64,000 nt of DNA from Nitrosopumilaceae archaeon (GTDB lineage Archaea; Thermoproteota; Nitrososphaeria; Nitrososphaerales; Nitrosopumilaceae). Under the pieces are notes generated by a model, which was given only the letters and a program-made list of their open reading frames with translations, was not told where the DNA came from and did not search any database. Shown here in pieces: positions 11,721 through 35,458 of the stretch; the stretch's first letter is position 1; each line of letters opens with the position of its first letter. Both the position numbers and the translations under genes were made by a program. Location of the stretch: the NCBI GenBank assembly GCA_028279545.1, contig JANQNN010000035.1:91425-155424 (forward strand). Direction: 5' to 3'.

Positions 11721-13846
11721 TATCTGACTTTTTTTAATTCTGACTTTATGTTATTTGCAAGGGTTAAACCAATTTTATCAATCTCTGCTAATTTATTCAC
11801 TGGAATTTTTGCCAAATCATCAAGAGTCTTTATTTTGTGTTTGAAAAGAATTCTAGCTCGTACCCTGCCGATTCCTTTTACTTTAACTAGCTCTAAAAGC
11901 TCTTCTCGAATTCCATAGACAATTCGTCGTCTGAGGTTTTCAAGCTCTTCAAGCAAGTCTGCTCTTTCTACGTGTTTTGCAATCTCCCTTAGGCAATAGG
12001 TAAGCCAATTTGCAGTCTCTACCATTCGGTGCATATCGCCTGATTCTATTCCAAGATTATCTGAAAGCGAAGTCTCAGAGGACTCTGTAATCCAGGCATG
12101 CAAAGAAAGAAGACTTCGCGAGCAATCATACTCTGAGATTTCTTCTAACAATTCTGATGAATTATTCTCAATTAAGAGGCTTGCAGCCTCAAAATCCTTG
12201 TTTCTCATGGAGAATTTGGGGAAAAACTCCTCAGAACTAGTAATTACATGCAAAAAGCCCAAAGTGTGTTTTTTCTTTTTAGAGACACCTTCTATTGAAT
12301 CTCTAAAAAAAGTAGCAGTCAAGGGGTCAATATACAGCATTGAGGTCTTTTTTCCAAACTCAGTTGCAGCATACCTGTCACCTTTTTTTACGATAAGAAA
12401 TTCACTTGACAAGAATCGCAGGGCAATATCGATTGCAAACTTTATTGTTGATTTTCTTGTTTGCAGTCCTCCAAATGTTTGTAAAAAGAATTCTAGAATT
12501 TTTTCTTTTTTTATTCCAGGATTTGTAACTATAACACTAAGAATGTGAACTCGCAAGGACTTGTCATCATTGATTTTTGATTCTATTGGTTCAGGTTCTC
12601 CTTTGATGTAGTGCTCTATTATTTCCTGTCCATTTCCATTTCCAACTATAATTGATTCGCCATACTTGTCATACTGTGGTCTTCCAGCTCTTCCGCAAAG
12701 CTGCTTGTACTCTAGTATGCTGATTGGTCTGTTTGCACCAACCTTTGCATTATACCTGCTGATACTTGAAATTACAACTCGCCTTGCAGGAAGATTCACA
12801 CCAGCAGCTAATGTTGGAGTAGATGACAATAGCTTTATTGTTCCTTTTCTAAATTCAGTTTCAAGTATTTGCCTGCATGTTTGATTTAGTCCTGCATGAT
12901 GAAAACCCACACCTTTTTTTATCAAAATTGCAAGTGTCTTTACTAAATCTGTGTTTTCACTTGTTGATAGAATCTTTTTTGAAATCTTTGCAAGTTCAGC
13001 TATTTCTTTTTTATCTAGTAATGACTCAACTCCATCCATTGCCTTTGTTGCCAAAGACTTTGAGCGAGTTCTGGTTTCTGCAAAGATTAATGATTGGCCC
13101 CCTTGCTTTACACATTGTATTCCAAGATCAATTGGAGGACCACGTACAGTATTTTCTACTTCAAATGTTTCCTCATCATCCATTGTAACTAGTCCTCCAT
13201 CATAAACTCCTTCAGATAGTGGTACTGGTCTCCAAGAGTTTTCAACTAGTTCGCATCCAAGCCATTTTGCAAGCTCATCAGAATTTGTTATAGTTGCACT
13301 AAGACCCAGAATCTGTGGTTTGCTTTCTAGTCTTTTTAGCTGAGTCAAAACCATCTCAAGTGTTGGACCACGAGTGTCATCGCCAATAAGGTGAATCTCA
13401 TCAGAAATCACAAGGCCCACCTCATCAAGCCAATCTACGCTTTTTCGGATAATAGAATCCATTTTTTCATTTGTTAAAATTAAGATGTTGTTTTTTTCTA
13501 GCTTTTTTTCTACATTATCAAAATCCCCAGTAGAGACTGCAACTTTGACCTTGTTTCCTATGGCTAGTTTTTCTAATTTTTTAAATTCCACAAATTTTTC
13601 AGCAGCCAGGGCACGAAGGGGGCTAAGATAGATTACTTTGCCCTTATTTTTTGAGAGATAACTAATGATGGCAAGAGTAGCAATCAGGGTCTTGCCACTT
13701 GCAGTAGGGGCAGATACTAGGACGCTTTTTCCCTTCAAAAGTCCTGCCTTTATGCTATCGATTTGAGGGGGGTAAAGCTTTGCAATTCCTTCAGACTTTA
13801 AAAACTCGATTGCAGATTCGGGAAGATCTAGTTTTTCTAATTTCAT
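11717..13846 (-). CDS. hel308: Hel308-family SF2 DNA helicase
   Basis: 709 aa. Motif I SAPTASGKTL, motif II DEIH, motif III LSAT, motif IVa/V region TPTLAAGVNLPARRVV, and motif VI QLCGRAGRPQYD are all present, followed by the winged helix, ratchet and a C-terminal helix-hairpin-helix (KVKGIGRVRARILF). Hel308 unwinds lagging strands at stalled forks. It overlaps mcm by 4 nt (ATGA type), tying it to the replisome genes. Confidence 0.92.
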   Translation of the reverse strand: MKLEKLDLPESAIEFLKSEGIAKLYPPQIDSIKAGLLKGKSVLVSAPTASGKTLIATLAIISYLSKNKGKVIYLSPLRALAAEKFVEFKKLEKLAIGNKVKVAVSTGDFDNVEKKLEKNNILILTNEKMDSIIRKSVDWLDEVGLVISDEIHLIGDDTRGPTLEMVLTQLKRLESKPQILGLSATITNSDELAKWLGCELVENSWRPVPLSEGVYDGGLVTMDDEETFEVENTVRGPPIDLGIQCVKQGGQSLIFAETRTRSKSLATKAMDGVESLLDKKEIAELAKISKKILSTSENTDLVKTLAILIKKGVGFHHAGLNQTCRQILETEFRKGTIKLLSSTPTLAAGVNLPARRVVISSISRYNAKVGANRPISILEYKQLCGRAGRPQYDKYGESIIVGNGNGQEIIEHYIKGEPEPIESKINDDKSLRVHILSVIVTNPGIKKEKILEFFLQTFGGLQTRKSTIKFAIDIALRFLSSEFLIVKKGDRYAATEFGKKTSMLYIDPLTATFFRDSIEGVSKKKKHTLGFLHVITSSEEFFPKFSMRNKDFEAASLLIENNSSELLEEISEYDCSRSLLSLHAWITESSETSLSDNLGIESGDMHRMVETANWLTYCLREIAKHVERADLLEELENLRRRIVYGIREELLELVKVKGIGRVRARILFKHKIKTLDDLAKIPVNKLAEIDKIGLTLANNIKSELKKVRY

Positions 13847-15930
13847 ACTCGGTTGTAATGACCGGGACTTGATTCATAAATAGATGCTTCGCGAAGCATT
13901 CTTCTAATATAACTTCGGGCTTCTTCTTCTGTGAACTTTTCTGTCTTTTCTAGTTCTTGGACAAATGTCTTTTCTTCAACTGCTACTTTGTGTTCTCCTT
14001 CTAGGGCTTTTAGGACATCCATGAAGAGTTGCATCTTTGATACTTCACTTCTTGGCCTTCCTTGCAAAACACCCAAGTCTACTTTGCCAGTATTTACATC
14101 AACTCCAGCATCTTGGAGCATTGATTCTATTAGGAAAATTGCGCGCTCTGCGTCTTCTTCTTCTACTTTGTCTTTCATGAGAAGTCTTGCACGTGCAGTT
14201 GAGAGTCTAATTATTCCTTCTAATTGTCTTGGAGTAACTGTAATCATCTCTTCTGATTCTACATTTCTCATCTTCAAATAATACTCTAGAATCTTTTCTT
14301 CAGCTTCTTTTGTTAAATCAGGATTTCCTCTTTTTGCATATGCAAGATATTTGGTAAGTAAATCAACATCAATTACAGAGCGTTTGTCTGTTCCTTGTGG
14401 AGTGTGAAGCTCTATAATGTGGCGTGCAATTTGTTCGTCTTTTTCCCTAGCTGGAATATCTCGAACAACAAAAATTAGGTCAAATCTTGTAAGCAAAGGA
14501 ATTGGAAGATTTACGTTTTCTGTAATGTTTTTGAATGGATCATATTTTCCATACATTGGGTTTGCAGCAGCTAAAATTGATGTTCGTGCGTTTAGTGTTG
14601 CAACAATACCACCCTTTGCAATGCTTGCAGATTGCTGCTCCATGACTTCGTGCAAGGCACTTCTGTCCTCAGGCTTCATCTTGTCAAATTCATCAATACA
14701 TACAAGACCTTGGTCTCCCAAAACTACAGCTCCTGCTTCTAACATCATGATTCCTGTCTTGTCTTTGACTACTGCTGCTGTAAGTCCTGCAGCTGTTGAA
14801 CCCCTACCAGAAGTGTATAGGCCTCGTGGTGCAATTCTTGCACAAAACTTTAGCATCTCACTTTTTGCAGTACCAGGGTCACCTACAAGAAATACGTTAA
14901 TGTCACCTCTAATCTTGCTTCCATCACCTAATAATCTCTGGTTAGAGCCTACAATTAGAAGCAAAATTGCTTCTTTGATTAGGGTTTGACCCTGGATGTG
15001 AGGGGCAAGTGAATCAATTAATCTCTGATAAATATCAGGACTCTCAGCTAGGGCTCGAATTAATTTTTCATCTTCAGGCAAAATTTCTTCTCGCTGAATT
15101 TTTCTTGAGGTCTTGTTTCCACGACCCCCAATAAACTCAATATTGTTTCCTTCAATTCTCAGTCTGTATAGTCCGCTATGTCCTCGTGCTACTCCTGAGA
15201 CTGATTCTTGCTCGATTCGAACAATCCCTGTTAGGATGATTCTATCTCCTGGTCTTGCGTTATCTACTAAATCTTGTCTGATTGTTACATCGATATAGTG
15301 AGGAAGCTGTCCTGGTGGAAGGTCTTCAGGAAGTTCTTGTAATCTTAGAATTTGAAAATCGATAAACTTGCTTTCTTCAGGTTTTAACTCAAAGTCTCTG
15401 TGTTTACAGTTTGGATTATCACATACAACTGGAGTCTTTACATCCATCCCTTTGATTTGAATTACTTTGGTTGGATGCTCATCAGGACAAACAAAGATTA
15501 GTTCTTTTGCAAGTGGCTTTACCTCTGATGCTCGAACCACCATTCCTGAAACACTTGTAATACTGCCAATTGTTTCGGCATTGATTTGTCTGAGGCTTCT
15601 TTGTAATGGATAGTTTACAAGTCTAACTCGGACTTCGTCTTTTATCTTTTCAGCATAATCAGGAAATCTAATTTGTAATGTTTCTTTTATTGCACGAGCA
15701 AATGCATTGAAAACCTTGTCAGGATCTTCTGAGAAAATTCTTGCAATCTCAGGCTCTATTACTAAATCATTGTAATCAACTAGAATATACTTTGCATTTT
15801 TTGGCATCATCTCATCGATTTGGTCAACGTACTTGTAGTTGCCAAACTTGTCTTTGAATCTAATTAGAAAATCCCTTACTCTATCTGATAATGCAGATTC
15901 TGTAAATGTACTAGCTTGAACTTTGCTCAT
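13843..15930 (-). CDS. mcm: Replicative helicase MCM
   Basis: 695 aa. N-terminal OB/zinc domain with a C-x..C-x4-C type zinc site near residues 168-195; AAA+ core with Walker A GDPGTAKSE, Walker B CIDEFDKM, and an Arg finger region LLTRFDLIF; then a C-terminal winged helix (residues about 620-695). Full length and no broken motif. It overlaps GINS by 20 nt upstream and hel308 by 4 nt downstream, so all three are probably co-translated. Confidence 0.96.
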   Translation of the reverse strand: MSKVQASTFTESALSDRVRDFLIRFKDKFGNYKYVDQIDEMMPKNAKYILVDYNDLVIEPEIARIFSEDPDKVFNAFARAIKETLQIRFPDYAEKIKDEVRVRLVNYPLQRSLRQINAETIGSITSVSGMVVRASEVKPLAKELIFVCPDEHPTKVIQIKGMDVKTPVVCDNPNCKHRDFELKPEESKFIDFQILRLQELPEDLPPGQLPHYIDVTIRQDLVDNARPGDRIILTGIVRIEQESVSGVARGHSGLYRLRIEGNNIEFIGGRGNKTSRKIQREEILPEDEKLIRALAESPDIYQRLIDSLAPHIQGQTLIKEAILLLIVGSNQRLLGDGSKIRGDINVFLVGDPGTAKSEMLKFCARIAPRGLYTSGRGSTAAGLTAAVVKDKTGIMMLEAGAVVLGDQGLVCIDEFDKMKPEDRSALHEVMEQQSASIAKGGIVATLNARTSILAAANPMYGKYDPFKNITENVNLPIPLLTRFDLIFVVRDIPAREKDEQIARHIIELHTPQGTDKRSVIDVDLLTKYLAYAKRGNPDLTKEAEEKILEYYLKMRNVESEEMITVTPRQLEGIIRLSTARARLLMKDKVEEEDAERAIFLIESMLQDAGVDVNTGKVDLGVLQGRPRSEVSKMQLFMDVLKALEGEHKVAVEEKTFVQELEKTEKFTEEEARSYIRRMLREASIYESSPGHYNRV

Positions 15931-22902: not shown

Positions 22903-23643
22903 TTAGTTTTCCTGCTTTGGTATTGGCATAGATAAAGGCTTGTCGGTCAATCCATTTCCATCCTCAAAGCATTTGGTTTGGTATTTACAAAACTTACACA
23001 AACCAGATACTTCCCCATCTAGAATTTTCTCAGTCTTTGCATTTTCTATTTCTTGAATCCTAGTATTAATCCACTTACTCACATCTCGTTTTTCTACTTT
23101 GTAAGTTACAATGTCAGACATATCAGCATACACAATGTTTAGATTCTCTACTGGCATGTATTCAGAAAACATTGTTTGATAACACTGGAGTTGTAGAATG
23201 TGTTCTTCTCTAGGTAAGAATCCTTGTTTTATTTGCCATCTAACAAACTTTGTAGTTTTTAGATCAATGATAGTCTTGGTCTTCCAATCATACATGTCTA
23301 GCCTTCCCGCAAGGGTAGCAATCCGTCCATCTTTTAGAGGAACATAATATTCCATATCCATCTCCCTCCACTTGTAAGCATAGGTCATCTGATGCAAGAA
23401 ATCCCCTCTAACAGTACCCCACATACTCTCAATGGTACCATCGCCAAGAAGCTCTTCTTTTGAGATTCCTAATTGTTTGTAAAGAGATTTTCTTTGGCAG
23501 CCAACTATTTCAGTAACTGAATATCTAGATGTGTAATCTTTAGAATACAAACCATTTCTTTTCTGTAAGAAATTTAGAATTCCTTCAGGTGCGTCAATTT
23601 CTTCTGAAATTGATTTTATTTTTTCTAGTGGAATTGTACTCAA
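22903..23643 (-). CDS. Cas4/RecB-like PD-(D/E)XK exonuclease with Fe-S cysteines
   Basis: 246 aa. Nuclease core residues are all in place: H84 (GDFLHQM), D116 (GRLDMYD), D127-x-K129 (IIDLKTTK) and Q152-x2-Y155 (QLQCYQ). Cys49 together with C216, C219 and C225 forms the 4Fe-4S pattern of Cas4 and AddB-type nucleases. It probably trims DNA ends. No other cas gene or repeat array is near, so it is an orphan Cas4-like enzyme. Last gene of a three-gene minus-strand operon whose promoter carries the CARF-type operator. Confidence 0.82.
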   Translation of the reverse strand: MSTIPLEKIKSISEEIDAPEGILNFLQKRNGLYSKDYTSRYSVTEIVGCQRKSLYKQLGISKEELLGDGTIESMWGTVRGDFLHQMTYAYKWREMDMEYYVPLKDGRIATLAGRLDMYDWKTKTIIDLKTTKFVRWQIKQGFLPREEHILQLQCYQTMFSEYMPVENLNIVYADMSDIVTYKVEKRDVSKWINTRIQEIENAKTEKILDGEVSGLCKFCKYQTKCFEDGNGLTDKPLSMPIPKQEN

Positions 23644-23664: not shown

Positions 23665-23874
23665 TTATTCACTAGATTCTCCCTCCAAAATGTTAGATGG
23701 TCTCAAACTTGGTTGAAGTCTTTCTAATTGTCTTTGTTTTTCTCGAATTGCATCCTCAAAGATTTTACTTTGCTCGTGATGGTAATCCAATTCAACTTCC
23801 ATCATTCGAATTTCAAAATCTAGTTCCGAAATACTAAATCTTTGTCGGAAGGGGTCTCTTACGTTTTTAGACAT
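23665..23874 (-). CDS. Small coiled-coil protein of the nuclease operon
   Basis: 69 aa from ATG 23874, which overlaps the upstream gene's last base. Residues 18-53 form a charged amphipathic helix with heptad-like Leu/Ile spacing (likely dimeric coiled coil). No family recognised. It sits 21 nt before the Cas4-like gene, so it may be a partner of that nuclease. A longer reading from 23907 is possible but would overlap the neighbour by 34 nt. Confidence 0.65.
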   Translation of the reverse strand: MSKNVRDPFRQRFSISELDFEIRMMEVELDYHHEQSKIFEDAIREKQRQLERLQPSLRPSNILEGESSE

Positions 23875-24311
23875 TAGTTTACACCTCCAAAAAATCGCTG
23901 AATCCATGCAGGAACAGGCTTGTTTGCAAAAACCTTGCCTGAGTCCTTTAGGATTTGAGGTATTCCAATCTTGACATCAAACAAAAGTAAAATGTCTTGA
24001 ATGATTGCAGGTGAAAACCTCATCTCTTGATGTAAAAATCCAATTGCTCTGGATTTTACAGGGGTCTTGAGGTGATTTATCTTACAATTTACAATTGCTT
24101 TGATTGCTTGTAAGATATTTCCATAGACATATTTGCTTACTCCCAAGTAATAGTCATCAAGTGTTGACATTACATAGTCGTAATGCTCATCTAGGGATTT
24201 TCTCTTAAAGAGTAAATTCTCTTGAAGATCAGAGAAGACAAACTTCTCAATGGAATCATAAGATTCAGCGCTAAGGTCGCCACCCATTTGGTATGAAAGT
24301 TGTTGTTTCAT
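23874..24311 (-). CDS. Unknown helical protein, first gene of nuclease operon
   Basis: 145 aa, mostly predicted helical, with a basic middle (NCKINHLKTPVKSRA) and a C-terminal PVPAWIQRFFGG. I recognise no family. The start ATG at 24311 is preceded, exactly 34 nt away, by a three-half-site operator that also occurs before hsdM at the same distance. The gene leads the operon ending in the Cas4-like nuclease. Confidence 0.7.
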   Translation of the reverse strand: MKQQLSYQMGGDLSAESYDSIEKFVFSDLQENLLFKRKSLDEHYDYVMSTLDDYYLGVSKYVYGNILQAIKAIVNCKINHLKTPVKSRAIGFLHQEMRFSPAIIQDILLLFDVKIGIPQILKDSGKVFANKPVPAWIQRFFGGVN

Positions 24312-24345: not shown

Positions 24346-24375
24346 ATTTGTATTATACAAATATTATTTGTATAA
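24346..24375 (-). promoter_or_regulatory. CARF-regulon operator copy 1
   Basis: On the minus strand: half-sites ACAAAT, ATTTGT and ACAAAT starting at 24371, 24362 and 24351 (offsets 0, 9, 20). Positions 24353-24375 are a perfect inverted repeat, arms TTATACAAAT and ATTTGTATAA around ATT. It points at the 145-aa gene start at 24311 with 34 nt between. It includes TATAAT-like sequence, so a bound protein would cover the TATA box. Confidence 0.8.
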
Positions 24376-24377
24376 TT

Positions 24378-25130
24378 TTATACGATGCTTCCTAACAATC
24401 CTGGATATTCAACATAGTACTCTCCAGAAGGTGTAAGCTGAATAGTTCTTTTCTTAAAATCCATAATTGGTTTTCCTGTTTTTTTACCTCTTTTCCCTGT
24501 ATCCCAACCAAGCGTAATGGTAATTAGATTATTTTCAAGTAGTTTTTTTAAAGAGTATTCTATTCGTTGATTCTTTTTTAGACGTCTGTCTTTTCTTACT
24601 TCATCAAGAAGAATTGCATTAGTACACTTTCCTAATTTTTTTATTTTTTGAAGCACAATTGCAGTAGTTCTAGAAGTATTTCCTCTATTATCATCTTCTG
24701 GTCTAACAGGCATCGGTAGTTCTTTTACAAGATCATCTCCTCTATGTTTTGAGGCTTCCATTACATAGTAAACTCTCGTTCCTGCTAGAAATGCCGCAGT
24801 AGTGGCAGCTGAAACCATTAATTTTGTACCTCCAGTAATGTTAATAGCAAAATCGGTTTTCAAAAGACTTGAATTTTTCTTCCTTTCTTGAAAGATGATA
24901 TTAAGAATAGATTTGATAATTTTATCCATATCAAAAGCATCCACTTTGACAAGTATTGTGGGAACTTTGTAATGAGTTTCAATTTTCTTTTTTAGTCTTT
25001 TTGCTTCAGTTTCAAATTTGTAAGTTTCTTCATTTTTAGTATGTATAATGTATAATTTTTCAGGAATTGATTTTTTTAATCCTTCTTCAACTACAATTGG
25101 GGTTACGCCAAGTGTGGCTAATTGAATCAT
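24378..25130 (-). CDS. CARF-domain winged-helix transcription regulator
   Basis: About 250 aa. The N-terminal Rossmann-like half (residues 1-130) has the CARF signature strand-turn FAINITGGTKLMVSAATTA, where Gly-Gly-Thr-Lys binds the cyclic oligonucleotide in known members (Csa3, Csm6, Can). Residues about 155-245 form a winged helix (LDEVRKDRRL, IEYSLKKLLENNLI, wing ending in IQLTPSGEYYV). So it should be a ligand-sensing repressor or activator, not an RNase. ATG 25130 is preferred; TTG 25139 is also possible and would sit inside the operator. No CRISPR genes are in the window. Confidence 0.82.
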   Translation of the reverse strand: MIQLATLGVTPIVVEEGLKKSIPEKLYIIHTKNEETYKFETEAKRLKKKIETHYKVPTILVKVDAFDMDKIIKSILNIIFQERKKNSSLLKTDFAINITGGTKLMVSAATTAAFLAGTRVYYVMEASKHRGDDLVKELPMPVRPEDDNRGNTSRTTAIVLQKIKKLGKCTNAILLDEVRKDRRLKKNQRIEYSLKKLLENNLITITLGWDTGKRGKKTGKPIMDFKKRTIQLTPSGEYYVEYPGLLGSIV

Positions 25131-25135
25131 TTTAA

Positions 25136-25161
25136 ACAAATAATATTTGTATTATACAACT
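25136..25161 (+). promoter_or_regulatory. CARF-regulon operator copy 2
   Basis: Plus strand half-sites ACAAAT (25136), ATTTGT (25145) and ACAACT (25156), the same 0/9/20 spacing as the other two copies, the third half-site being degenerate. It lies 5 nt before the CARF gene ATG on the minus strand and 95 nt before the acidic-protein gene on the plus strand, so it can serve autoregulation and control of the divergent gene. Confidence 0.78.
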
Positions 25162-25256
25162 AATAACCATTTTTCTTTATATAAATAATAAAATTTGATT
25201 TTTGGAATTTAAAGAACATCTTAAATGCTATCTATACAAGCTGCAAATGTATTTCC

Positions 25257-26372
25257 ATGAGTTATGATGAACCTGAAGATGAGGAACCTGAAAACTATGA
25301 AAGTGAAGAAGAGCGACTCGAGCGAGAGCAAGAAGAATTTGAAAAAGACCAATGGGAACGAGAGTTAGAAGAATTTGAAGGCGATAGTGAAGAAAATGAA
25401 ATTATAGAATCTGAAAATTCTACAGAACCCTCAGACGAAGAACAAAATATCTTAGATATTATTCAATCAAAATATTCACAATTAGCTGATCCATCTTTAG
25501 ATGAAGACGAAAAAGAAAAAATCAAACGAGAACTTGATACATTAATTTTTCAAGCAAAGAAAAAAACAGAAGAACCTAGATTAGAATTTGAATACGATCC
25601 AGATTATAATATCTATAATTTTGCAAGATCCTCGTTCGTGTTATCTTTAGAATTATCTTGGCCTAAAATTAGAACAAAAATGGATTCCTTAATGAAATTG
25701 ATTGCAAACACTAGATTGGAATATGAGAAAATTATTGCTCTAAGAGATCTTATTGATAAATTTGAGCGAAAATATGTTTTTGAAATAATTAATTCAGTTA
25801 AACCAAAATCACGAAATGAAAATTTTACATTTGAATCAGAAAAATTTGAGGAAATAATAATCGATCTTCATAAAACATATGATGATTTCTTTAATGTTTT
25901 CCTTGAGGATGTTCATTTTGACACAAGGGGGAAAAAATATCTTAAATTCATGGGTAAAACTTCAAAATTTCGTGCATTAATGTTAGATTTACGTGATAAA
26001 AAAATAAAAGCAGATGAATTGAAACAAACCTTTGAACCTAATTTCAAATATTGTAATTTGGATTATGGAAATAGTTTAGGAAAAACAGGCACCGAAGAAA
26101 AAGGGTTTCTTTTTCAAGGTTATTGGCAAATGGAATATACATTAAATGAATTACGTCATCACACACAACACTGGAAGCAAGATGATGGGAAAAAATTCCT
26201 AAAAGAAGATGTACAAAGAAAAATAGAAGATCCAATTTCAGGAATAGAATCACCAGGAAATTTCTTTATTTTGATTAGTGTATTATTTTTGGTAAGCTAT
26301 CATTTCATAGATGTAATGCAAACTTGGATTGATACTGATGTGTTGTTTAGGAGGTCAAGAATTAAGCACTAA
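25257..26372 (+). CDS. Acidic-tailed protein with an R-x4-H motif, CARF-regulon member
   Basis: 371 aa. Residues 1-65 are extremely acidic (more than half Asp/Glu) and probably disordered or coiled. Residues 115-310 are helical and hold R300-HHTQ-H305 in a helix (NELRHHTQHW), which fits the R-x4-6-H active site of HEPN RNases; a hydrophobic helix near 328-350 could be a membrane anchor or core helix. I recognise no named family. It lies between the CARF gene and hsdM and has a copy of the shared operator on each side. HEPN assignment is a suggestion only. Confidence 0.6.
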   Translation: MSYDEPEDEEPENYESEEERLEREQEEFEKDQWERELEEFEGDSEENEIIESENSTEPSDEEQNILDIIQSKYSQLADPSLDEDEKEKIKRELDTLIFQAKKKTEEPRLEFEYDPDYNIYNFARSSFVLSLELSWPKIRTKMDSLMKLIANTRLEYEKIIALRDLIDKFERKYVFEIINSVKPKSRNENFTFESEKFEEIIIDLHKTYDDFFNVFLEDVHFDTRGKKYLKFMGKTSKFRALMLDLRDKKIKADELKQTFEPNFKYCNLDYGNSLGKTGTEEKGFLFQGYWQMEYTLNELRHHTQHWKQDDGKKFLKEDVQRKIEDPISGIESPGNFFILISVLFLVSYHFIDVMQTWIDTDVLFRRSRIKH

Positions 26373-26402
26373 TTATACAAATATTATTTGTATAATACAA
26401 AT
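26373..26402 (+). promoter_or_regulatory. CARF-regulon operator copy 3
   Basis: Begins at the base after the preceding stop codon. Half-sites ACAAAT (26377), ATTTGT (26386) and ACAAAT (26397), spacing 0/9/20. Positions 26373-26395 are identical to the 23-bp inverted repeat of copy 1. The distance to the hsdM ATG is 34 nt, the same as copy 1 to its gene, and the intervening sequence is also alike. Confidence 0.82.
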
Positions 26403-26436: not shown

Positions 26437-28563
26437 ATGGGAAAAAGAACAACCATTAAGAAAAATGGAAAAAGAGAAGAAAAATTCAATATTAATAATG
26501 AAAGTAATAGTTATGTTGAGAATCTTACCTCGTTTAGAAGGATTATTGGTGAAAATGACATGAACATGAATGAAATTATCAGTTTAGCATGGGGGGCAAA
26601 AGAGATTCTAAGAGGTGATTTTAAAAGAATTGATTACGGAAGAATCATTTTACCATTTATTGTTCTTAGAAGAATAGGTAGAGTATTAGAGCCAACAAAA
26701 AAGAAGGTTTTAGAAGAATTAGAAAAACATAAGGGAGAGGATGAGAAGTTTCTTGAAGCCATACTCAATGATGTTTCAGGATTTAGATTCCATAATAAAA
26801 GTAAATATGATTTAGAATTACTTTTAGCTGATCCTGAAAATATTCACAAAAACATGAAGACCTACATTAGAGGATTTTCTAACGATGTGAGAGATATCTT
26901 TGAGCATTTTAAATTCAATAATACAATTGATGAGTTAGACACACAAGGAATTTTGTATTCCATTGTTCAGCACTTTGCAAAAGCACCACTTGATCCAGAA
27001 ATCATTAGTCACCATGATATGGGAACTATTTACGAAGAATTAATTAGAAAACAAGCAGAAGCTACCAACGAAGAAGCAGGAGAGAATTTTACTCCAAGAG
27101 AAGTAATCCATTTAATGGTAAATCTTATTTTTTCTGACGATGAAGAAATTCTAAAACAAAAAGGTGTTTCTAAATCTGTATATGACCCTGCTGCAGGAAC
27201 TGGAGGAATGTTGGCAATTGCAGAAGAACGTCTACGCGAAATTAATAAAGATGTGCGAGTGGAATTATTTGGTCAAGAACTATTACCATTTGCATATGCA
27301 ATTTGTAAATCAGATATGTTATTGAAAGAATTTGAACAACTTGATCATATTCAGCTTGGAAATAGTTTAACTGATCAAGACGCTTTCAAAAATGAAAAAT
27401 TCCATTACATGCTTTCAAATCCGCCATTTGGTGTAGATTGGGGAAAGTATGCTGGGAAGATCGAGGCTGAAAGAGAAAAAGGATATGAGGGAAAGTATGG
27501 TCCAGGACTTCCAAGAAAAAGTGATGGCTCTCTACTATTTTTGATGCAAATGATTTCTAAAATGAAACCAAAAGAACAAGGTGGTGCAAGGATTGCTATT
27601 GTTCTAAATGGCTCTCCTTTATTTACTGGAGAGGCGGGTTCAGGAGAAAGTAACATCAGAAAATGGATTATTGAAAATGATATGCTTGAAGCGATAATTG
27701 CAATGCCGGATCAATTATTCTATAATACTGGTATTTTCACATATCTTTGGATTGTTACAAATAATAAGCCAAAAAATAGAATGGGAAAAATTCAGTTAAT
27801 CAATGCATCAGGTCCAGAATTTTACCAGAAAATGAAGACTAGTCTAGGTATGAAAAGAAATGAAATTGAGGAGGAAAATAATGGACAAATTACAAAAATT
27901 ACAAAAATTTTCAAAGAATTCAAAGAAGGAGAATATTCTAAGATCTTCGATAACAAAGACTTTGGTTATACCAGAATTACTGTTGAGCGTCCATTAAAAA
28001 GAAATTTTGAAGTAAAAAATGAAAGAATTGAAATTTTAAAACAAGAGAAGAACTTTTTGAAACTACCCGAAGAAAAAGGGACTGAAAAGATTCCTTCTCA
28101 ACAACAAGTTCTAGAGTGTTTAAGTAAGATTCCAAAAAAAGTTTACAAAAACTATACTGAATTCTTGAATGTTCTTAAAGGAGTTTTCGCTGAAAATACC
28201 GTAAAACTTTCTTCACCATTACAAAAAACAATCGAAAATTCTTTATCTGAAAGGGATGAAACTGCAGATCCTCATTACAATAAATCAGAAGATCTCCACC
28301 CTGTACCAGATTCTGATTTAAGAGATTATGAAAATATTCCACTAAAACAAAATATTGATGAATACTTTGAAAATGAAGTCAAAAAGTATTTTTCAGATGC
28401 CTGGATTGATGAATTAACTAAAGAAAAAATAGGTTATGAAATTCCATTTACGCGTCAATTTTACAAATACAAACCATTAAGACCGCTAGAAGAAATTGAT
28501 GCTGAAATAAAACAACTACAAAAAGAAATCACTGCTGGGGTGGAGGAGTTGATGAATGAATGA
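26437..28563 (+). CDS. hsdM: Type I restriction-modification DNA methyltransferase subunit
   Basis: 708 aa. N-terminal helical HsdM domain, then the N6-adenine methylase core with ENFTPREV, motif I DPAAGTGGML (about residue 250) and motif IV SNPPFG (about 327). It methylates adenine in a site chosen by HsdS. The C-terminal 150 residues form an extension with charged helices that probably contacts HsdS. The first 41 residues before MNMNEIIS are poorly conserved, so an internal start is possible. Stop overlaps hsdS by 4 nt. Confidence 0.95.
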   Translation: MGKRTTIKKNGKREEKFNINNESNSYVENLTSFRRIIGENDMNMNEIISLAWGAKEILRGDFKRIDYGRIILPFIVLRRIGRVLEPTKKKVLEELEKHKGEDEKFLEAILNDVSGFRFHNKSKYDLELLLADPENIHKNMKTYIRGFSNDVRDIFEHFKFNNTIDELDTQGILYSIVQHFAKAPLDPEIISHHDMGTIYEELIRKQAEATNEEAGENFTPREVIHLMVNLIFSDDEEILKQKGVSKSVYDPAAGTGGMLAIAEERLREINKDVRVELFGQELLPFAYAICKSDMLLKEFEQLDHIQLGNSLTDQDAFKNEKFHYMLSNPPFGVDWGKYAGKIEAEREKGYEGKYGPGLPRKSDGSLLFLMQMISKMKPKEQGGARIAIVLNGSPLFTGEAGSGESNIRKWIIENDMLEAIIAMPDQLFYNTGIFTYLWIVTNNKPKNRMGKIQLINASGPEFYQKMKTSLGMKRNEIEEENNGQITKITKIFKEFKEGEYSKIFDNKDFGYTRITVERPLKRNFEVKNERIEILKQEKNFLKLPEEKGTEKIPSQQQVLECLSKIPKKVYKNYTEFLNVLKGVFAENTVKLSSPLQKTIENSLSERDETADPHYNKSEDLHPVPDSDLRDYENIPLKQNIDEYFENEVKKYFSDAWIDELTKEKIGYEIPFTRQFYKYKPLRPLEEIDAEIKQLQKEITAGVEELMNE

Positions 28564-29900
28564 AACCTTATCCAAGGATGAAAGAATCTGGCGTAGAATG
28601 GATTGGAAAAATCCCTGAACATTGGGAAGTTACTAGATTAAAGAGAATTCAATCAAAAGAACCACGTTCCTTTGTTGATGGAAATTGGATTGAAGCACCT
28701 TTTATTACAGATAAAGGAATAAGGTTAATTCAAACAGGAAATATTGGAATAGGAGAATACAAAGAAAAAGGATTTAGATTTATTTCTGAGGAAACTTTCA
28801 AAAAGTTAAATTGTAATGAAATTTTTCCAGATGATGTACTTATTTGCAGGTTAGCTGAACCAGTAGGAAGAGCATGTTTAGCTCCTAAACTAAAGTCAAA
28901 AATGATTACATCTGTAGATGTGGCAATTTTAAAACCCTCAAAAAACATAGAGCCAAAATTTGTAGTGTATTTTTTGACAAATTCAAAATATTTTGATTGG
29001 TTAAATTCGGTTAGTAGGGGAAGTACGAGGCAAAGAATCAGTAGAAGTATGTTAGGAGATATTGATTTTATTCTTCCTAGTTTATCAGAACAAAAACAAA
29101 TTTGTAGTTTTTTGAAAAAGGAAATTTCTAAAATTGATTTTGATTTAGAAAAAAACAAAAAATTAAGTAAATTGTTGGATGAAAAACGTGCATCAACTAT
29201 CAATCATGCAATTATTAGAGGACTCAAACCAAGTGCTAAAATGGAAAATTCAGGGATAACCTGGATTGGAAAAATCCCTAAACATTGGGAAATTAAGAAA
29301 TTGAAAATGATTTCAGTTATTACTAAACTTACAGGATTTGAATATACAAGTTTTTGGAAAACTGAAGATGAGGGAGAAATTTTGGCAATAAGGGGTGAGA
29401 ATATTGGTTTTAATGAATTAGACAAAGGGAATATGGAGAAAATTTCCAAAAAACTTTCAGATAAATTATCTCGATCAAAATTGTTTAAAGGGGATATAGT
29501 GTTCCCATGTACAGGAAGTATTGGAAATGCTGCAATAATTCTGGAAGATAACAAGTATCACATTAACCAAAATGTAGCAAAAATATCATCAAAAATTATA
29601 GATCCAAACTTTTTGGTATTTGTTTTATTAAGTAATATCGTAAAATTTCAAGCAACATCAGCAAATACTTCAGGAATTCAACCAGTAGTTTTAATAAAAA
29701 ACATTAGACAATTTTTGATTCCAATTCCCCCAAAAGATGAACAAAAAGAAATTGCAGAATATTTAGCAAAAAAAATGGTTGAATTCGATAATACAAATTT
29801 AATATTAAAAAATAAAATCCAAAAATTAACTGAACTTCGTCAGTCGATAATAACATCTACGGTTACTGGCCAAATTGATGTAAGGGAGACAATAGTATGA
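28560..29900 (+). CDS. hsdS: Type I RM specificity subunit 1
   Basis: 446 aa with two target recognition domains (about residues 10-200 and 225-420), each opened by the block SGVEWIGKIPEHW or SGITWIGKIPKHW and closed by a conserved coiled helix (EQKQICSFLKKE; EQKEIAEYLAKK). The two halves read two parts of a split DNA site. ATGA overlaps with hsdM before and hsdR after show one translational unit. Confidence 0.93.
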   Translation: MKPYPRMKESGVEWIGKIPEHWEVTRLKRIQSKEPRSFVDGNWIEAPFITDKGIRLIQTGNIGIGEYKEKGFRFISEETFKKLNCNEIFPDDVLICRLAEPVGRACLAPKLKSKMITSVDVAILKPSKNIEPKFVVYFLTNSKYFDWLNSVSRGSTRQRISRSMLGDIDFILPSLSEQKQICSFLKKEISKIDFDLEKNKKLSKLLDEKRASTINHAIIRGLKPSAKMENSGITWIGKIPKHWEIKKLKMISVITKLTGFEYTSFWKTEDEGEILAIRGENIGFNELDKGNMEKISKKLSDKLSRSKLFKGDIVFPCTGSIGNAAIILEDNKYHINQNVAKISSKIIDPNFLVFVLLSNIVKFQATSANTSGIQPVVLIKNIRQFLIPIPPKDEQKEIAEYLAKKMVEFDNTNLILKNKIQKLTELRQSIITSTVTGQIDVRETIV

Positions 29901-32900
29901 CCATTGAAATTACGGAAAAACAATTCGAAGATCATATTGAAAAAGTTCTACTTGATTCAGGTTACATTAAAGGAACTGAAAACTATGACAGAAAACTGGC
30001 AGTCGATTATGAAATTTTAATTCAATTTATTCAAAATTCTCAAAAAGAAAAATGGAATAAATTAAGCGAAATTCATGGTGAGCAAACAAGAGATGAGATT
30101 CTAAGCGCGCTAGAAAAAGCCCTTAATTCTGATTCCATGATTCATGTTTTAAGAAATGGCTTTAAAATTTCAGATATCAAGGTAGAATGTGCCTATTTCA
30201 GGCCAGTTTCTAGCCTAAATCCTGACCTAAAGTGGCTTTATGACCAAAACATTCTCTCCGTTAAAAGGCAGTTACACTATTCAACAAGAAATGAAAAATC
30301 CTTAGATTTAGTATTTTTCTTAAATGGATTACCTGTTGGAACAGCAGAGCTCAAAGACTACAAAAATGGATATCTTGATGCCATAACACAATATCAACAA
30401 GATAGGGATCCTGCAGAGATTCTGTTTTCATTTAAGAAAAGAGCATTGGTTCACTTTGTAATAGATCCTTTTGAGATTCACATGACAACAAAACTTGCAG
30501 GAAATGATACTGAATTTTTACCATTTAACAAAGGAGAAAATGGTGGAAAAGGAAACCCTCCAAATCCTAATGGAGTTAGAACAAGCTATCTTTGGGAAAA
30601 TATTTTGCAAAAAGATTCATGGTTAGAAATAATTGGAAATTATATCACACACCAAATTATACCAAAAAAATATCCAGAGCCACCTAAAGAGGTATTGATT
30701 TTTCCAAGATTTCATCAATTAGATGCTGTAAATTTATTAGAAAATGAAACAAAAAACCTTGGTGCGGGTAATAACTTTTTAATTCAACACTCAACAGGTA
30801 GTGGAAAAAGCAATACAATAGCATGGCTTGCATACAAATTATTTTCCATTCATGATTCAAATGATAATCCTATTTTTGATTCCATTGTTGTATTGTCTGA
30901 TAGACTAGGAATTGTTAATCAATTATCAAAAACTATTGAACAGTTTGAGCAAACATCAGGAGTAGTACAACTAATGGATACAACTCAGATTTTGATTGAT
31001 AATTTAGAAACCTCAAAAAAAATTCTAGTTACAACACAACAAAAATTTCCACCAGCACTAAAAAAAATTGGAGAAATCAAAGGGAGAAAATTTGCTGTAA
31101 TTATTGATGAAGCACATTCATCTCAAACCGGTGAGGATGCAAAAAAAGTTGTAGAGATGTTATCATCAAATATGACCGAAGAAATCAAAAAAGCTCAATC
31201 AAGAGAAGAAGGTACAAAAGATATTGTAGACCAGTTAGAAGAATTACACTCAATTGGAAATTTGAGCTACTATGCCTTTACTGCCACACCTAAAAAAAAG
31301 ACTTTGAGACTATTTGGGAGAGAGATTTCTGAGGCTGGTGAAGGTGGAGTACCTTTTGAGCCACATCATGAATATTCAATGAGGCAGGCAATCGAAGAAG
31401 GATTCATCTTAGATGTTCTTCAAAACTATACTACTTACAACCAATATTTTCAACTAGTAAAGACTACAACTGGAGAAAAAATAGTTGAAGGAAAAAGAGC
31501 AGCAGCAGCAATTTTGAAATGGGTTAATTCTCATGAGATGTCAATAGAGGCAAAAGCTGAGGTTGTTTTAGAAGACTTTCATCAAAATGTAAAACCAGCA
31601 ATAGGTGGGCTGGCAAAAGCAATGGTGGTAACTCCATTAATAAAATCAGCCTTCAAGTACAAGCAGATTATTGATAAAAAAATTAAAGAAAAAAACATCA
31701 AAGGAGTAAAAACTCTAATTGCATTTTCAGGTTCGATAAGAGATGAAGAAGGAAATACACATACTGAAAGAAGTCTAACTCATACTAGTACAGATCAAGA
31801 GTTAAGAGACCTTTTTGATACTCCTGAATACAATATTTTGATTGTGGCTGAAAAATATCAAACAGGTTTTGATCAACCATTACTTCATACTATGTATGTA
31901 GATAAACAACTTAGAGGAATTAAAGCAGTACAAACATTATCAAGATTAAATCGTTATCATCCACTAAAAGAAGAGACCAGAATTATTGATTTTCAAAACG
32001 ATTCTAGTCAAATTGAAAAAGCCTTCACTAGATTCTATAATGGAACAACTTTAATCGATAAAGTAGAACCAGATTTTTTGCCAAGACTATATTCACATAT
32101 AATGAATGATTATAACATCATCTTACAAAATGATTTAGATGAATTTGAAAATTTATTTTTAAAATCACAAGATGACTTTGATGAGACTGAAGTTTTTAGA
32201 ATTGTAGAACCAATAATTCAGAGATTTAATCAGGTAGAAGAAAAAATTCAGAATGATTTTAGAGCAAATCTCAGTAAATATCACAAAGAATATTCATTTC
32301 TAACAAGACTAGTGCAATACACTAATTCAAATCTAAAAAAATTACATGGTTTAATCAAATTCTTGTTTATCAAAAGATTATTGCTTGATCCTGCATTAGA
32401 ATTAGGCGTAATTCAAAGAGATTTGTCTTTACAGAGATTTAGACTTGAACGTATACATGATGGACGTATTTCGATTGATTCAGATAAAAAAAGGCTCACC
32501 TCCTCAGACAAAACCCCCACAGGAAAAGAGCCAGAAGAAATGACATCACTTTCATCAATTGTTCTAGCAATGAATGAACAGTTTGGTGTAGGTTTTGATT
32601 TGACTGATGCTGAGGTAATTACCATTGATGAGTGGATGGATGTTCTAAAAAAAATGCCATCATTAAAAGACATTGCACAATCACCACACAATGATTTTAA
32701 TGATTTTTCAAGAGCATTTCGTGAAGAATTTGATAGAATAATAATCAGAAAGGAGATGGTTCAGCAATACAAAGGATTGATTTCAAAAATTTGGGAAGAT
32801 GAATCATACCACAATGCTATTGTTCAAAAAGCAGCAGAGATGTATTATGAATGGGCAAAAGAAAATCACATTCCACCAATTACTCCTGCAAATCCAGCAG

Positions 32901-33376
32901 AGAATAGGTTAAGATTCAGACAAACAATTGCTAGTTGTAAAGGGTATCTTAATTGGGTTGATAGATACTTCAATTATGAAGGATTGGAATTTTTAATGCA
33001 TGGATTAAACAGACAAGATGTAAAGCAGGTAAAAATTCTAACTAGTGTATATCAAAACGGCGTAAATCAAAAACTCTATGATGAATTTTCAATATTACAA
33101 AATGAATTGCAAAGTAAAGGAATAACTTGTGAGATGCAAGTAATAATGACAAAAGACTTGCATAGACAAATGCATGATAGATTTATGATTGCAGAAAATG
33201 TAACATATAATGTTCCATCGCCCACAACTGTTAATCTAGGGCAATATAGTGAAATCAGGAAATCAACATCCAAGGTTCCATTTGATGATTGGTGGAATAG
33301 TTCTGAATCTATAGATATTTTACAAAACTGGGGTAAAATCAAGGAAAAAAGGGAGCAAATCAAAAGGAGATACTAG
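29897..33376 (+). CDS. hsdR: Type I restriction endonuclease subunit with PLD-like C-terminus
   Basis: 1159 aa, longer than most HsdR. PD-(D/E)XK nuclease: LDLVFFLN...AELKD near residues 135-150. SF2 translocase: Walker A STGSGKSN (about 299-306), DEAH (about 403), FTATPKKK, and YQTGFDQP with QTLSRLNR near 655-695. The last 110 residues (LTSVYQNG, then LHRQMHDRFMI near 1088-1098) look like a phospholipase-D-type fold with H-x-R replacing the usual H-x-K. Motifs for DNA cutting are intact. Only 3 nt separate it from the second hsdS. Confidence 0.93.
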   Translation: MTIEITEKQFEDHIEKVLLDSGYIKGTENYDRKLAVDYEILIQFIQNSQKEKWNKLSEIHGEQTRDEILSALEKALNSDSMIHVLRNGFKISDIKVECAYFRPVSSLNPDLKWLYDQNILSVKRQLHYSTRNEKSLDLVFFLNGLPVGTAELKDYKNGYLDAITQYQQDRDPAEILFSFKKRALVHFVIDPFEIHMTTKLAGNDTEFLPFNKGENGGKGNPPNPNGVRTSYLWENILQKDSWLEIIGNYITHQIIPKKYPEPPKEVLIFPRFHQLDAVNLLENETKNLGAGNNFLIQHSTGSGKSNTIAWLAYKLFSIHDSNDNPIFDSIVVLSDRLGIVNQLSKTIEQFEQTSGVVQLMDTTQILIDNLETSKKILVTTQQKFPPALKKIGEIKGRKFAVIIDEAHSSQTGEDAKKVVEMLSSNMTEEIKKAQSREEGTKDIVDQLEELHSIGNLSYYAFTATPKKKTLRLFGREISEAGEGGVPFEPHHEYSMRQAIEEGFILDVLQNYTTYNQYFQLVKTTTGEKIVEGKRAAAAILKWVNSHEMSIEAKAEVVLEDFHQNVKPAIGGLAKAMVVTPLIKSAFKYKQIIDKKIKEKNIKGVKTLIAFSGSIRDEEGNTHTERSLTHTSTDQELRDLFDTPEYNILIVAEKYQTGFDQPLLHTMYVDKQLRGIKAVQTLSRLNRYHPLKEETRIIDFQNDSSQIEKAFTRFYNGTTLIDKVEPDFLPRLYSHIMNDYNIILQNDLDEFENLFLKSQDDFDETEVFRIVEPIIQRFNQVEEKIQNDFRANLSKYHKEYSFLTRLVQYTNSNLKKLHGLIKFLFIKRLLLDPALELGVIQRDLSLQRFRLERIHDGRISIDSDKKRLTSSDKTPTGKEPEEMTSLSSIVLAMNEQFGVGFDLTDAEVITIDEWMDVLKKMPSLKDIAQSPHNDFNDFSRAFREEFDRIIIRKEMVQQYKGLISKIWEDESYHNAIVQKAAEMYYEWAKENHIPPITPANPAENRLRFRQTIASCKGYLNWVDRYFNYEGLEFLMHGLNRQDVKQVKILTSVYQNGVNQKLYDEFSILQNELQSKGITCEMQVIMTKDLHRQMHDRFMIAENVTYNVPSPTTVNLGQYSEIRKSTSKVPFDDWWNSSESIDILQNWGKIKEKREQIKRRY

Positions 33377-33379
33377 ATT

Positions 33380-34717
33380 TTGAGGCTAAAACCATATGAA
33401 AAAATGAAGGATTCAGGAGTAGAATGGATTGGAGAAATTCCTGAACATTGGAAAATTTCAAAGATTTCCAAGGTAGTTACTAAAATTACGAATGGATTTG
33501 TTGGACCTACAAGAGACATTCTAGTAGAAGAGGGTACACCCTATTTACAATCACTTCATGTAAAGAATGGGAAGATAAAATTTAAGAAAAAATATTTTGT
33601 TTCTGATTCCTGGAGTAAAAATCATTCAAAATCAATTTTAAGAGAAGGTGATGTAGTGGTTGTTCAAACAGGTGGAATTGGTGAATGCGCTGCAGTCACA
33701 AAAGAATTTGAAGGGAGTAATTGCCATGCTTTAATCATAGTACAATTAAAACAAGACTTGGGAATTGGTTTTTTTCTTTCATATCTATTGAGATCAAATT
33801 ATGGATTAAATACAATAATTAGTTTAAAGACTGGAGCTTTACATCCACATTTAGAAATTGGGAATTTTAAGGATGTATTTATTCCGTTACCACCATTAAA
33901 GGAACAAAAAACTATTGTAAATTTTTTAGATAGAGAAACTGCAAAAATTAATTTACAAATTGAAAAAAATCAAAAGATTATTGAACTTTTGTTGAGTAAA
34001 AAAAAAGTACTAATCAATCAATTGGTTACAAAAGGACTTGAAAAATCAGTTTCAATGAAAGATTCTGGGATAGAATGGATAGGGGAAATTCCTGAATCAT
34101 GGGAAATTTCACCTCTAAAATTTTTAGTAAACAAAATTGGAAGTGGAATAACCCCAAAAGGCGGAAGTGAAAGTTACAAAGAATCTGGGATTCCATTAAT
34201 CAGAAGTCAAAATGTTCATTTTGAAGGATTACGATTAGATGATGTTGCATTCATTAATGAACATACTCATAAACAAATGAATGGTACACATCTTAAAGAA
34301 TTTGATGTGCTACTAAATATTACAGGAGCCTCAATTGGTCGTTGTACATTCGTACCAAAAAATTTTGGAGAAGGAAATGTAAACCAACATGTTTGTATTA
34401 TTCGTCCTAATGAAAATCTTCATTATTCATATTTATTGAATTTTTTACAATCACCTACAATACAAGATTGGATTAACGCTGTTCAAGTAGGAGCAAGTAG
34501 ACAAGGGTTAACTTTGGAAGAAATTAATTCATTATTAATTACCATTCCAAGTATTGAAGAACAAAAAAAAATTTCCAGTTATCTTGGACAAGAAACAAGT
34601 AAAATTGATAATATTATTATGAATACTGAAAAACAAAATATTAGGCTACATGAATTTAATCGATCCTTAATTAATTCAAGCACACTGGGGAAAATTGATG
34701 TTACAGGATTAGCTTAA
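33380..34717 (+). CDS. hsdS: Type I RM specificity subunit 2
   Basis: 445 aa, same design as the first HsdS with SGVEWIGEIPEHW and SGIEWIGEIPESW blocks opening the two recognition domains, but the recognition domains themselves differ. A second HsdS gives the complex another sequence specificity. Start TTG 33380, 3 nt after hsdR. Its end overlaps the integrase remnant by 9 nt tail to tail. Confidence 0.92.
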   Translation: MRLKPYEKMKDSGVEWIGEIPEHWKISKISKVVTKITNGFVGPTRDILVEEGTPYLQSLHVKNGKIKFKKKYFVSDSWSKNHSKSILREGDVVVVQTGGIGECAAVTKEFEGSNCHALIIVQLKQDLGIGFFLSYLLRSNYGLNTIISLKTGALHPHLEIGNFKDVFIPLPPLKEQKTIVNFLDRETAKINLQIEKNQKIIELLLSKKKVLINQLVTKGLEKSVSMKDSGIEWIGEIPESWEISPLKFLVNKIGSGITPKGGSESYKESGIPLIRSQNVHFEGLRLDDVAFINEHTHKQMNGTHLKEFDVLLNITGASIGRCTFVPKNFGEGNVNQHVCIIRPNENLHYSYLLNFLQSPTIQDWINAVQVGASRQGLTLEEINSLLITIPSIEEQKKISSYLGQETSKIDNIIMNTEKQNIRLHEFNRSLINSSTLGKIDVTGLA

Positions 34718-35458
34718 TGAATCTGGTATTGAAATACTATTACTAACTAAATATTGTTTCAATTCTGTCATGGATTTTTCCAGATCTTCATATTTTTCAG
34801 ATAAATCTGTAATTTGCTGTTCTACCTTTTCATAATCAGAAATTGTAAGATATGGCTCTGCAGATAAATATTTTTTATGTTTTTCTTCAGGAGATAATTG
34901 ATAGTACGTATCCATGTAAAATCCGTGCCCCATCAAGGCTTCAGCATAGTCTCTTCCACAAACATTTCCAACATTAGTCCTGAAAAACTTTCTAAACGCA
35001 TGGAAATGAATGGCTTTTCGTCCATTTTCATTTTTGATGTTCAATTCAGGAATGTTTTTGATATGATTTTTCAATAAAGAATTAAGATCTCTTCTGGATG
35101 AAACAGAGTTGTATCTTGGAATATCTCTTTTTTGCTTAGATAATTTTCCGAAGATATAGGTACCACTCAAATCCAAATTAAGACTATTTGGATGCCATCC
35201 GATATCCGTTTTAAGATATTTTTGAAGAACTTGTGTAGCTTCTTCTGTAATGAAAGTTTGTCTTGACAATCTACCCTTTGAAAAATTCTTACGAACTAAA
35301 ATCTTAGTAGGAGTTGTAGTAAAATCAACATCAAATAAGCGGAGTTGTACTAATTCTCCAATAGACATTCCACTTGTTAAAATAATTAGAATTGCTGCCT
35401 TTAATTTAGGAACAGTGTTACAAACACATTGAAGAATTTCCTTTCTGGTTAAATCCAA
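34709..35458 (-). pseudogene. Tyrosine recombinase/integrase, probably decayed
   Basis: 249 aa matching the catalytic domain of archaeal tyrosine integrases: H153-A-F-R156 box, GH at 177-178, and the following Tyr pair at 185-186, then a coiled C-terminal tail. Two defects are visible. The first catalytic Arg (in TSGxRxGEL) is Ser32. And the N-terminal core-binding domain is missing: upstream in the same frame (35459-35560) the reading continues as an integrase-like helix (SVAENTINKVKKYRSVYGN) but with TAA and TAG stops. It may still be expressed from TTG 35458, but is unlikely to recombine DNA. Confidence 0.7.

Follow-up and report, generated by a model that had tools for sequence, protein, structure and literature searches.

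Operators around a CARF-winged-helix gene point to a local regulon of defence genes in a thaumarchaeal genome

Introduction

How archaea restrain costly restriction systems is a question to which the locus described here offers a candidate answer. CARF regulators of defence genes, including ones which bind their own promoter, are already known (Csa3, PMC8844856; MM_0565, PMC7465815); outside CRISPR, little is known of what CARF transcription factors control and sense. In the 64,000-nucleotide stretch of DNA which we analysed (the window), part of a 1.92-Mb thaumarchaeal genome from the family which includes Nitrosotalea, a gene for a CARF-winged-helix protein lies inside a defence cluster bounded by a Cas4-like gene (22903) and an integrase (35458), and its putative targets are legible from the DNA as three copies of a short sequence element. 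This raises the question of whether these elements are operators of one regulon, which protein binds them, in which direction they act and what is sensed.

The defence cluster and its probable regulator

The window contains a complete type I restriction-modification set, with HsdM and HsdS identified by both Pfam and PADLOC and HsdR by PADLOC (Table 1). A second HsdS-like subunit follows, and a tyrosine recombinase, also found close to the CARF locus in L021, L023 and L057, marks the cluster edge. On the other side of the CARF gene lie p145, p80 and a Cas4-like nuclease gene. The Cas4-like protein scored below the curated Cas4 cut-off (TIGR00372: 40.4 vs 65 bits) and its gene has no cas1 linkage, Cas1 being absent from its own genome. 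Homologues of the Cas4-like protein were found in 8 of the 10 operator-bearing CARF loci (window, L020–L024, L057 and L058), and a p145 homologue with an operator ahead of it in L021, L022, L023 and L057.

Table 1 Features of the defence cluster in the window.
Feature	Position	Strand	Remarks
Cas4-like PD-(D/E)XK nuclease	22903–23643	-	PF12705 34.8 bits; PADLOC Cas4 40.7 bits
p80	23665–23907	-	Small protein of unassigned family, after p145
p145	23874–24311	-	145 aa, N-terminus MKQQLSYQMGG; unassigned family; first gene after operator 1
Operator 1	24346–24372	-	Palindrome 24356–24372, third half-site 24346–24351; 0 mismatches
CARF-winged-helix regulator	24378–25130	-	250 aa; ATG start at 25130 backed by homologues
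Operator 2	25135–25161	+	Palindrome 25135–25151, degenerate third half-site 25156–25161; 1 mismatch
R-x4-H protein, acidic N-terminus	25257–26372	+	371 aa; E-L-R-x-H-x-x-H-W; HEPN-like by motif alone
Operator 3	26376–26402	+	Palindrome 26376–26392, third half-site 26397–26402; 0 mismatches
HsdM, type I methyltransferase	26437–28563	+	PF02384 202 bits; PADLOC MTase_I 864.8 bits
HsdS, specificity subunit	28560–29900	+	PF01420 99.1 bits; PADLOC Specificity_I 319.7 bits
HsdR, restriction subunit	29897–33376	+	PADLOC REase_I 103 bits
HsdS-like subunit, second	33380–34717	+	Resembles HsdS of L021 and L022
Tyrosine recombinase, cluster edge	34709–35458	-	PF00589 39.5 bits

The regulator matched Pfam HFX_2341_N (PF19810, 40.8 bits, cut-off 30), CARF_Card1 (30 bits, cut-off 24.6) and PADLOC CARF3 (104.8 bits), and the glycine loop of its Rossmann-like CARF domain, T99-G-G-T102, is invariant among its homologues. 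HFX_2341_N matched all eight of the CARF members scanned. The window protein has its N-terminal domain in common with HFX_2341/DUF6293 proteins, and no C-terminal DUF6293 domain was found in it, the corresponding winged-helix family (PF22665) being found in only 1 of these 8 members (E 0.018), which was not the window protein. Curated cut-offs for Csa3 were not reached either (TIGR01884: 21.5 vs 60.2 bits; PF22662: 18.9 vs 27 bits). The best matches to the structure model, which has a moderate pLDDT of 76.8, were Csa3 2wte (E 1.9e−05) and 6wxq (E 3.6e−05), with low TM-scores; the winged helix is assigned from this model and from weak HMM hits. One scan for viral carriers of this type of CARF protein found none.

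The R-x4-H protein has three residues (R300, H302 and H305) which are invariant in 3/3 homologues. Pfam and fold searches gave no HEPN match for it, and its model is all-helical and of low confidence. Upstream of this gene (25195–25260) there is an open frame without a start codon. A short ORF overlaps the gene start via ATGA, and this leader is partly kept in L021.

Three operators in the window

The initial annotation had described a triple half-site pattern at three places in the window, with half-site offsets of 0, 9 and 20. We found both the pattern and the offsets as described, the 26-bp triples spanning 24346–24371 (minus strand), 25136–25161 (plus) and 26377–26402 (plus); copy 1 starts at 24346 rather than at 24351. 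The inverted repeat common to copies 1 and 3 was also present: on the plus strand it reads ATTATACAAATATTATTTGTATAAT, which is 25 bp when the ends are counted. Five matches with at most three mismatches, two of them exact, occurred in the window, compared with a mean of 0.79 and a maximum of 4 in 100 shuffles. A search of the whole 1.92-Mb genome returned two exact matches and one with a single mismatch, all of which were in the cluster, and the next-best matches had two mismatches and were scattered. The pattern is therefore not a feature of many unrelated promoters, as the best matches in the genome are the three copies themselves, and scattered genomic repeats were ruled out as an explanation since the exact triples are confined to the cluster.

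Each copy had been proposed to point at a different transcription unit. This held for two of them: the palindrome of operator 1 lies 45 bp from the p145 ATG (24311) and is predicted to serve the p145-p80-Cas4-like unit, and that of operator 3 lies 45 bp from the hsdM ATG (26437). It is less well supported for the R-x4-H gene, from which the palindrome of operator 2 is 106 bp away on the divergent side. Copy 2 had also been said to cover the start of the CARF gene, which is only the case if a TTG at 25139 is used; with the homologue-backed ATG at 25130 the palindrome lies 5 bp upstream. It appears to be primarily the control site of the CARF gene itself, and the same 4–5 bp geometry was seen in 9/9 loci. 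With 106 bp in place of 45/46 bp, a link to the R-x4-H gene is less secure. The start of this gene is 106–112 bp away from the shared palindrome in the window and both close relatives, and the window copy has a TATA-like stretch of its own at ~25174; it is possible that it too is under CARF control.

Operators in related CARF loci

The operator was expected to be conserved alongside the CARF gene in related genomes, and we found this in two close relatives and in more distant ones. The close relatives, in Nitrosotalea devanaterra (72% identity to the window CARF protein) and G003 (74%), have the same operators before hsdM, the CARF gene and the Cas4-like gene despite a rearranged gene order. 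In G003 the operator on the Cas4 side precedes a 50-aa ORF just before the Cas4-like gene, and p145 also has an operator. Profile searches then brought in six further, more distant loci that have TACRAA-type sites, plus one whose site is recoded. The core palindrome TACRAA-N5-TTYGTA is common to nine diverged CARF loci, the relatives being 28–74% identical to the window CARF protein.

The genes behind these operators differ between loci. Type I restriction systems of one subfamily are present in the window, L020, L021 and L022 and those of another subfamily in L023; a MoxR-VWA unit is found directly behind the operator in L056 and downstream of the Cas4-like gene in L024; and a unit of a Cas4-like protein and a DruE-like helicase follows the operator in L057.

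We scanned the nine loci for the distance between TACRAA-N5-TTYGTA (at most one mismatch) and ATG starts and found two sharp peaks, one at 45/46 bp (21 cases), which comprises p145, Cas4-like, hsdM and MoxR units, and one at 4–5 bp, which includes all nine of the CARF genes. Other distances were near background except for 69/70 bp, a peak which results from an in-frame second ATG in the leaders of p145 and the Cas4-like genes. Restricting the count to exact palindromes, now in ten loci, left 18 of 23 at 45/46 bp from an ATG compared with 0.38 expected (Poisson tail 2e−24), although this value overstates the certainty because the loci are related by descent and the counts are not fully independent. 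Several loci contain bidirectional palindromes, with the CARF gene 5 bp to one side and a divergent effector gene 45/46 bp to the other, and in L057 a site with two mismatches lies 46 bp before the Cas4-DruE unit. Departures from this geometry include L058, whose likely CARF start is ~50 bp rather than 5 bp from the palindrome, and L025, where two of the three exact palindromes are off the usual distance.

The constant spacing could also reflect descent rather than mechanism, if the elements were copies of a promoter-plus-leader cassette spread by recombination in defence islands. Unrelated proteins behind the operator do have a common MKQx[IV]S N-terminus (p145, the Cas4-like proteins of L022 and L023, the 50-aa ORF of L021 and the cysteine-rich 105-aa p105 of L025 and L058), and promoter and leader look as if they were mobile as a single cassette. 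However, hsdM in the window, L020, L021 and L022 keeps the 45/46 bp spacing without this leader, the 21 aligned promoters show little consensus over columns +20 to +34 although the length of this segment is constant, and the palindromes are conserved while their flanks diverge. We consider it improbable that descent by itself accounts for the elements, and spread as a cassette is compatible with operator function. The leader was located at 24311 in the window, 15765 in L021, 9004 and 18424 in L022, 1864 and 13285 in L023, 17317 in L025 and 14712 in L058.

Recoded operators and the probable binding protein

In the 21 aligned effector promoters the third half-site has T at +3 in 21/21 and C at +5 in 19/21, and some loci (L025 and L056) have a weak copy or none. 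Two genomes have altered half-sites. In G138 the palindrome has TACGAA, and the third half-site is TACGAA at two of three promoters and TACGAT at the third. In G395, where the CARF protein is only ~25% identical, the palindrome is TGCAGA-N5-TCTGCA, the third position is TGCATT in 3/4 sites and the 45/46 bp spacing is kept in the four copies examined. This recoded palindrome has five copies genome-wide, all on the contig which carries the CARF gene (C23), and was absent from nine other genomes searched. Since the third half-site was recoded along with the palindrome in both genomes, the architecture of three half-sites is genuine, and the third half-site was ruled out as a mere BRE element. In L059 (G072), AACCAA-N5-TTGGTT palindromes at 8724 and 10585 lie near a divergent CARF gene, one of them 45 bp from an ATG; they are a weak candidate for what is possibly another recoded operator and were left out of the evidence.

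We looked for the 26-bp triple in every one of the 250 genomes available for the family, with a reversed pattern as a control. The triple occurred in G000, G003, G008 and G138, in each case only within the CARF locus, and the reversed pattern had zero matches in the 250 genomes. A further match in G154 was rejected as chance, as it lies inside an integrase reading frame. No such operators were present in five loci examined for the HFX_2341-type (DUF6293-like) CARF paralogues which are common in thaumarchaea of this order.

Sequence comparison therefore supports the proposal that the elements serve as operators in a single local regulon, and co-occurrence, synteny and half-site recoding support the CARF protein as its cognate regulator. 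In particular, the operator is tied to the CARF-winged-helix protein because the half-site is recoded in G395 while the spacing is kept. Sequence by itself cannot name a binding protein, and an unlinked DNA-binding protein might recognise the sites, the CARF gene being merely adjacent. Against this, the triple was found only where the CARF gene is present (barring the one chance match in a coding sequence), half-sites are recoded from one locus to the next along with divergent CARF proteins, and besides the operator the CARF gene is the sole element common to all loci; we regard an unlinked binder as very improbable. We put the probability that the CARF protein binds these operators and controls the units behind them at roughly 80%.

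Direction of regulation

We propose that the protein is a one-component regulator similar to Csa3, with an N-terminal CARF domain that would bind a ligand and a C-terminal winged helix. A CARF dimer would bind TACRAA-N5-TTYGTA, with an extra half-site 3 bp beyond, and the local regulon would consist of the restriction-modification operon, the p145-p80-Cas4-like operon and the CARF gene. At the defence units the palindrome would lie just upstream of BRE/TATA, 45/46 bp before the start codon; at the CARF gene, where 4–5 bp separate it from the start codon, it would cover the expected transcription start. The regulator is predicted to switch when a ligand binds its CARF domain. The sites, their spacing, conservation and recoding, and their restriction to the CARF locus are seen directly in the sequence; that CARF binds them, the sign of its action and its control by a ligand are inferred.

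Archaeal activators usually sit upstream of TATA. A palindrome at a fixed 45/46 bp upstream of BRE/TATA therefore suits activation, through recruitment of the basal machinery in a stereospecific manner, and one over the CARF transcription start suits self-repression. On account of these two promoter geometries we favour activation of the effectors with self-repression of CARF over general repression. Overall, the odds of this arrangement appear slightly better than even, and they are somewhat better again if binding by the CARF protein is taken as given.

The effector promoters might instead be repressed, because the third half-site overlaps the place expected for BRE and TATA, judged from TATA-like hexamers which peak ~24–39 bp before start codons in CARF loci. 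CARF might then be a pure repressor everywhere, blocking effector BRE/TATA through the third half-site as well as its own start, until released by an infection ligand. The CARF self-control sites near the start in 9/9 loci would fit this, and ligand derepression is one general model for CARF and WYL regulators (PMC4012209). A repressor, however, would not depend on a spacing held to a single base, the main palindrome of the effectors is upstream of the TATA region, and the geometry clearly differs between effector and CARF promoters, which makes pure repression rather unlikely in our judgement. With effector activation and self-repression, a single CARF protein is probably the switch for the entire defence cluster and keeps its own production in check.

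The ligand

It had been suggested that the protein senses a cyclic oligonucleotide, a claim for which we found no support. The Cas10 palm domain was not found in nine genomes with window-type CARF proteins. CD-NTases were rejected as a ligand source: the SMODS hits in eight of these genomes were to a ~450-aa protein, and the best hit, the one examined, was the archaeal CCA-adding enzyme. Motif 1 of cA4 binding in Csa3 (G-F-N/D-x-x-F; PMC8844856) is not conserved either, the window protein having G8 followed by V-T-P and its homologues other non-matching residues. An infection-linked nucleotide is a possible ligand. We give even odds to the broader idea of a CRISPR-independent CARF switch with interchangeable modules, a rigid operator grammar and a signal not made by Cas10, in which operator and CARF specificity would co-evolve locus by locus.

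Comparison with known regulators

The closest counterpart is Csa3 (Csa3a/Csa3b) of Sulfolobales, which controls defence genes, including the cas4 promoter, via a two-palindrome site (PMC8844856). The window protein appears to share with it the combination of CARF and winged helix, 2wte/6wxq being the best fold matches of the model. Unlike Csa3, it has no CRISPR link, with neither Cas1 nor Cas10 in its own genome, and window-type CARF proteins are predicted to target restriction-modification, Cas4-like, MoxR and DruE units. In Methanosarcina mazei, MM_0565 is an archaeal CARF regulator which binds to the promoter of its own gene and influences a casposon gene; its study found genome-wide effects and no distinct binding motif (PMC7465815), in contrast to the precise operator and local regulon described here. 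RtcR-like CARF sigma-54 activators are found near restriction-modification systems, and a CARF sensor has been proposed to control restriction (PMC4012209); these are bacterial NtrC-type AAA+ activators, whereas the window protein is an archaeal winged-helix protein without an AAA+ domain. WYL-domain defence-island regulators are repressors. They are described as winged-helix, ligand-binding proteins beside varied defence systems (PMC9122601), and are bacterial with a WYL sensor, whereas the regulator here is archaeal with a CARF sensor.

A literature search, whose coverage did not extend to the 2020 CARF classification, found no CARF-winged-helix protein with a defined operator on restriction, Druantia-like or MoxR units. 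The best reading of the loci compared, which come from ammonia-oxidising archaea, is a self-limiting local regulator of interchangeable modules, namely type I restriction (two subfamilies), Druantia-like DruE and MoxR-VWA. The precise operator, the two promoter geometries and the naturally recoded half-sites make the binder, the direction of regulation and the sensed molecule directly testable, and the operator can serve as a search pattern for more genes of such defence modules.

Other genes in CARF loci

In L057 (10526–18905) a 2072-aa DruE-like (Druantia) helicase gene follows the Cas4-like gene, with a degenerate operator 46 bp from the ATG. The unit of a MoxR AAA protein and a VWA protein recurs in CARF loci without restriction genes (L024 11177–14637 and L056 14160–18431); in L024 it includes a DnaJ-domain protein, and no PADLOC model recognised the MoxR and VWA proteins tested. 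L025 contains a gene for a TFIIB-type factor (13021–13935) behind an exact palindrome (12874), with no ATG at the usual distance. Proteins with an R-N/H-x3-H motif (HEPN-like) recur in L021 (12586–13428), L024 (17407–18162), L025 (14054–15031) and L058 (10393–11355), and that of L058 has an operator 45 bp before its ATG.
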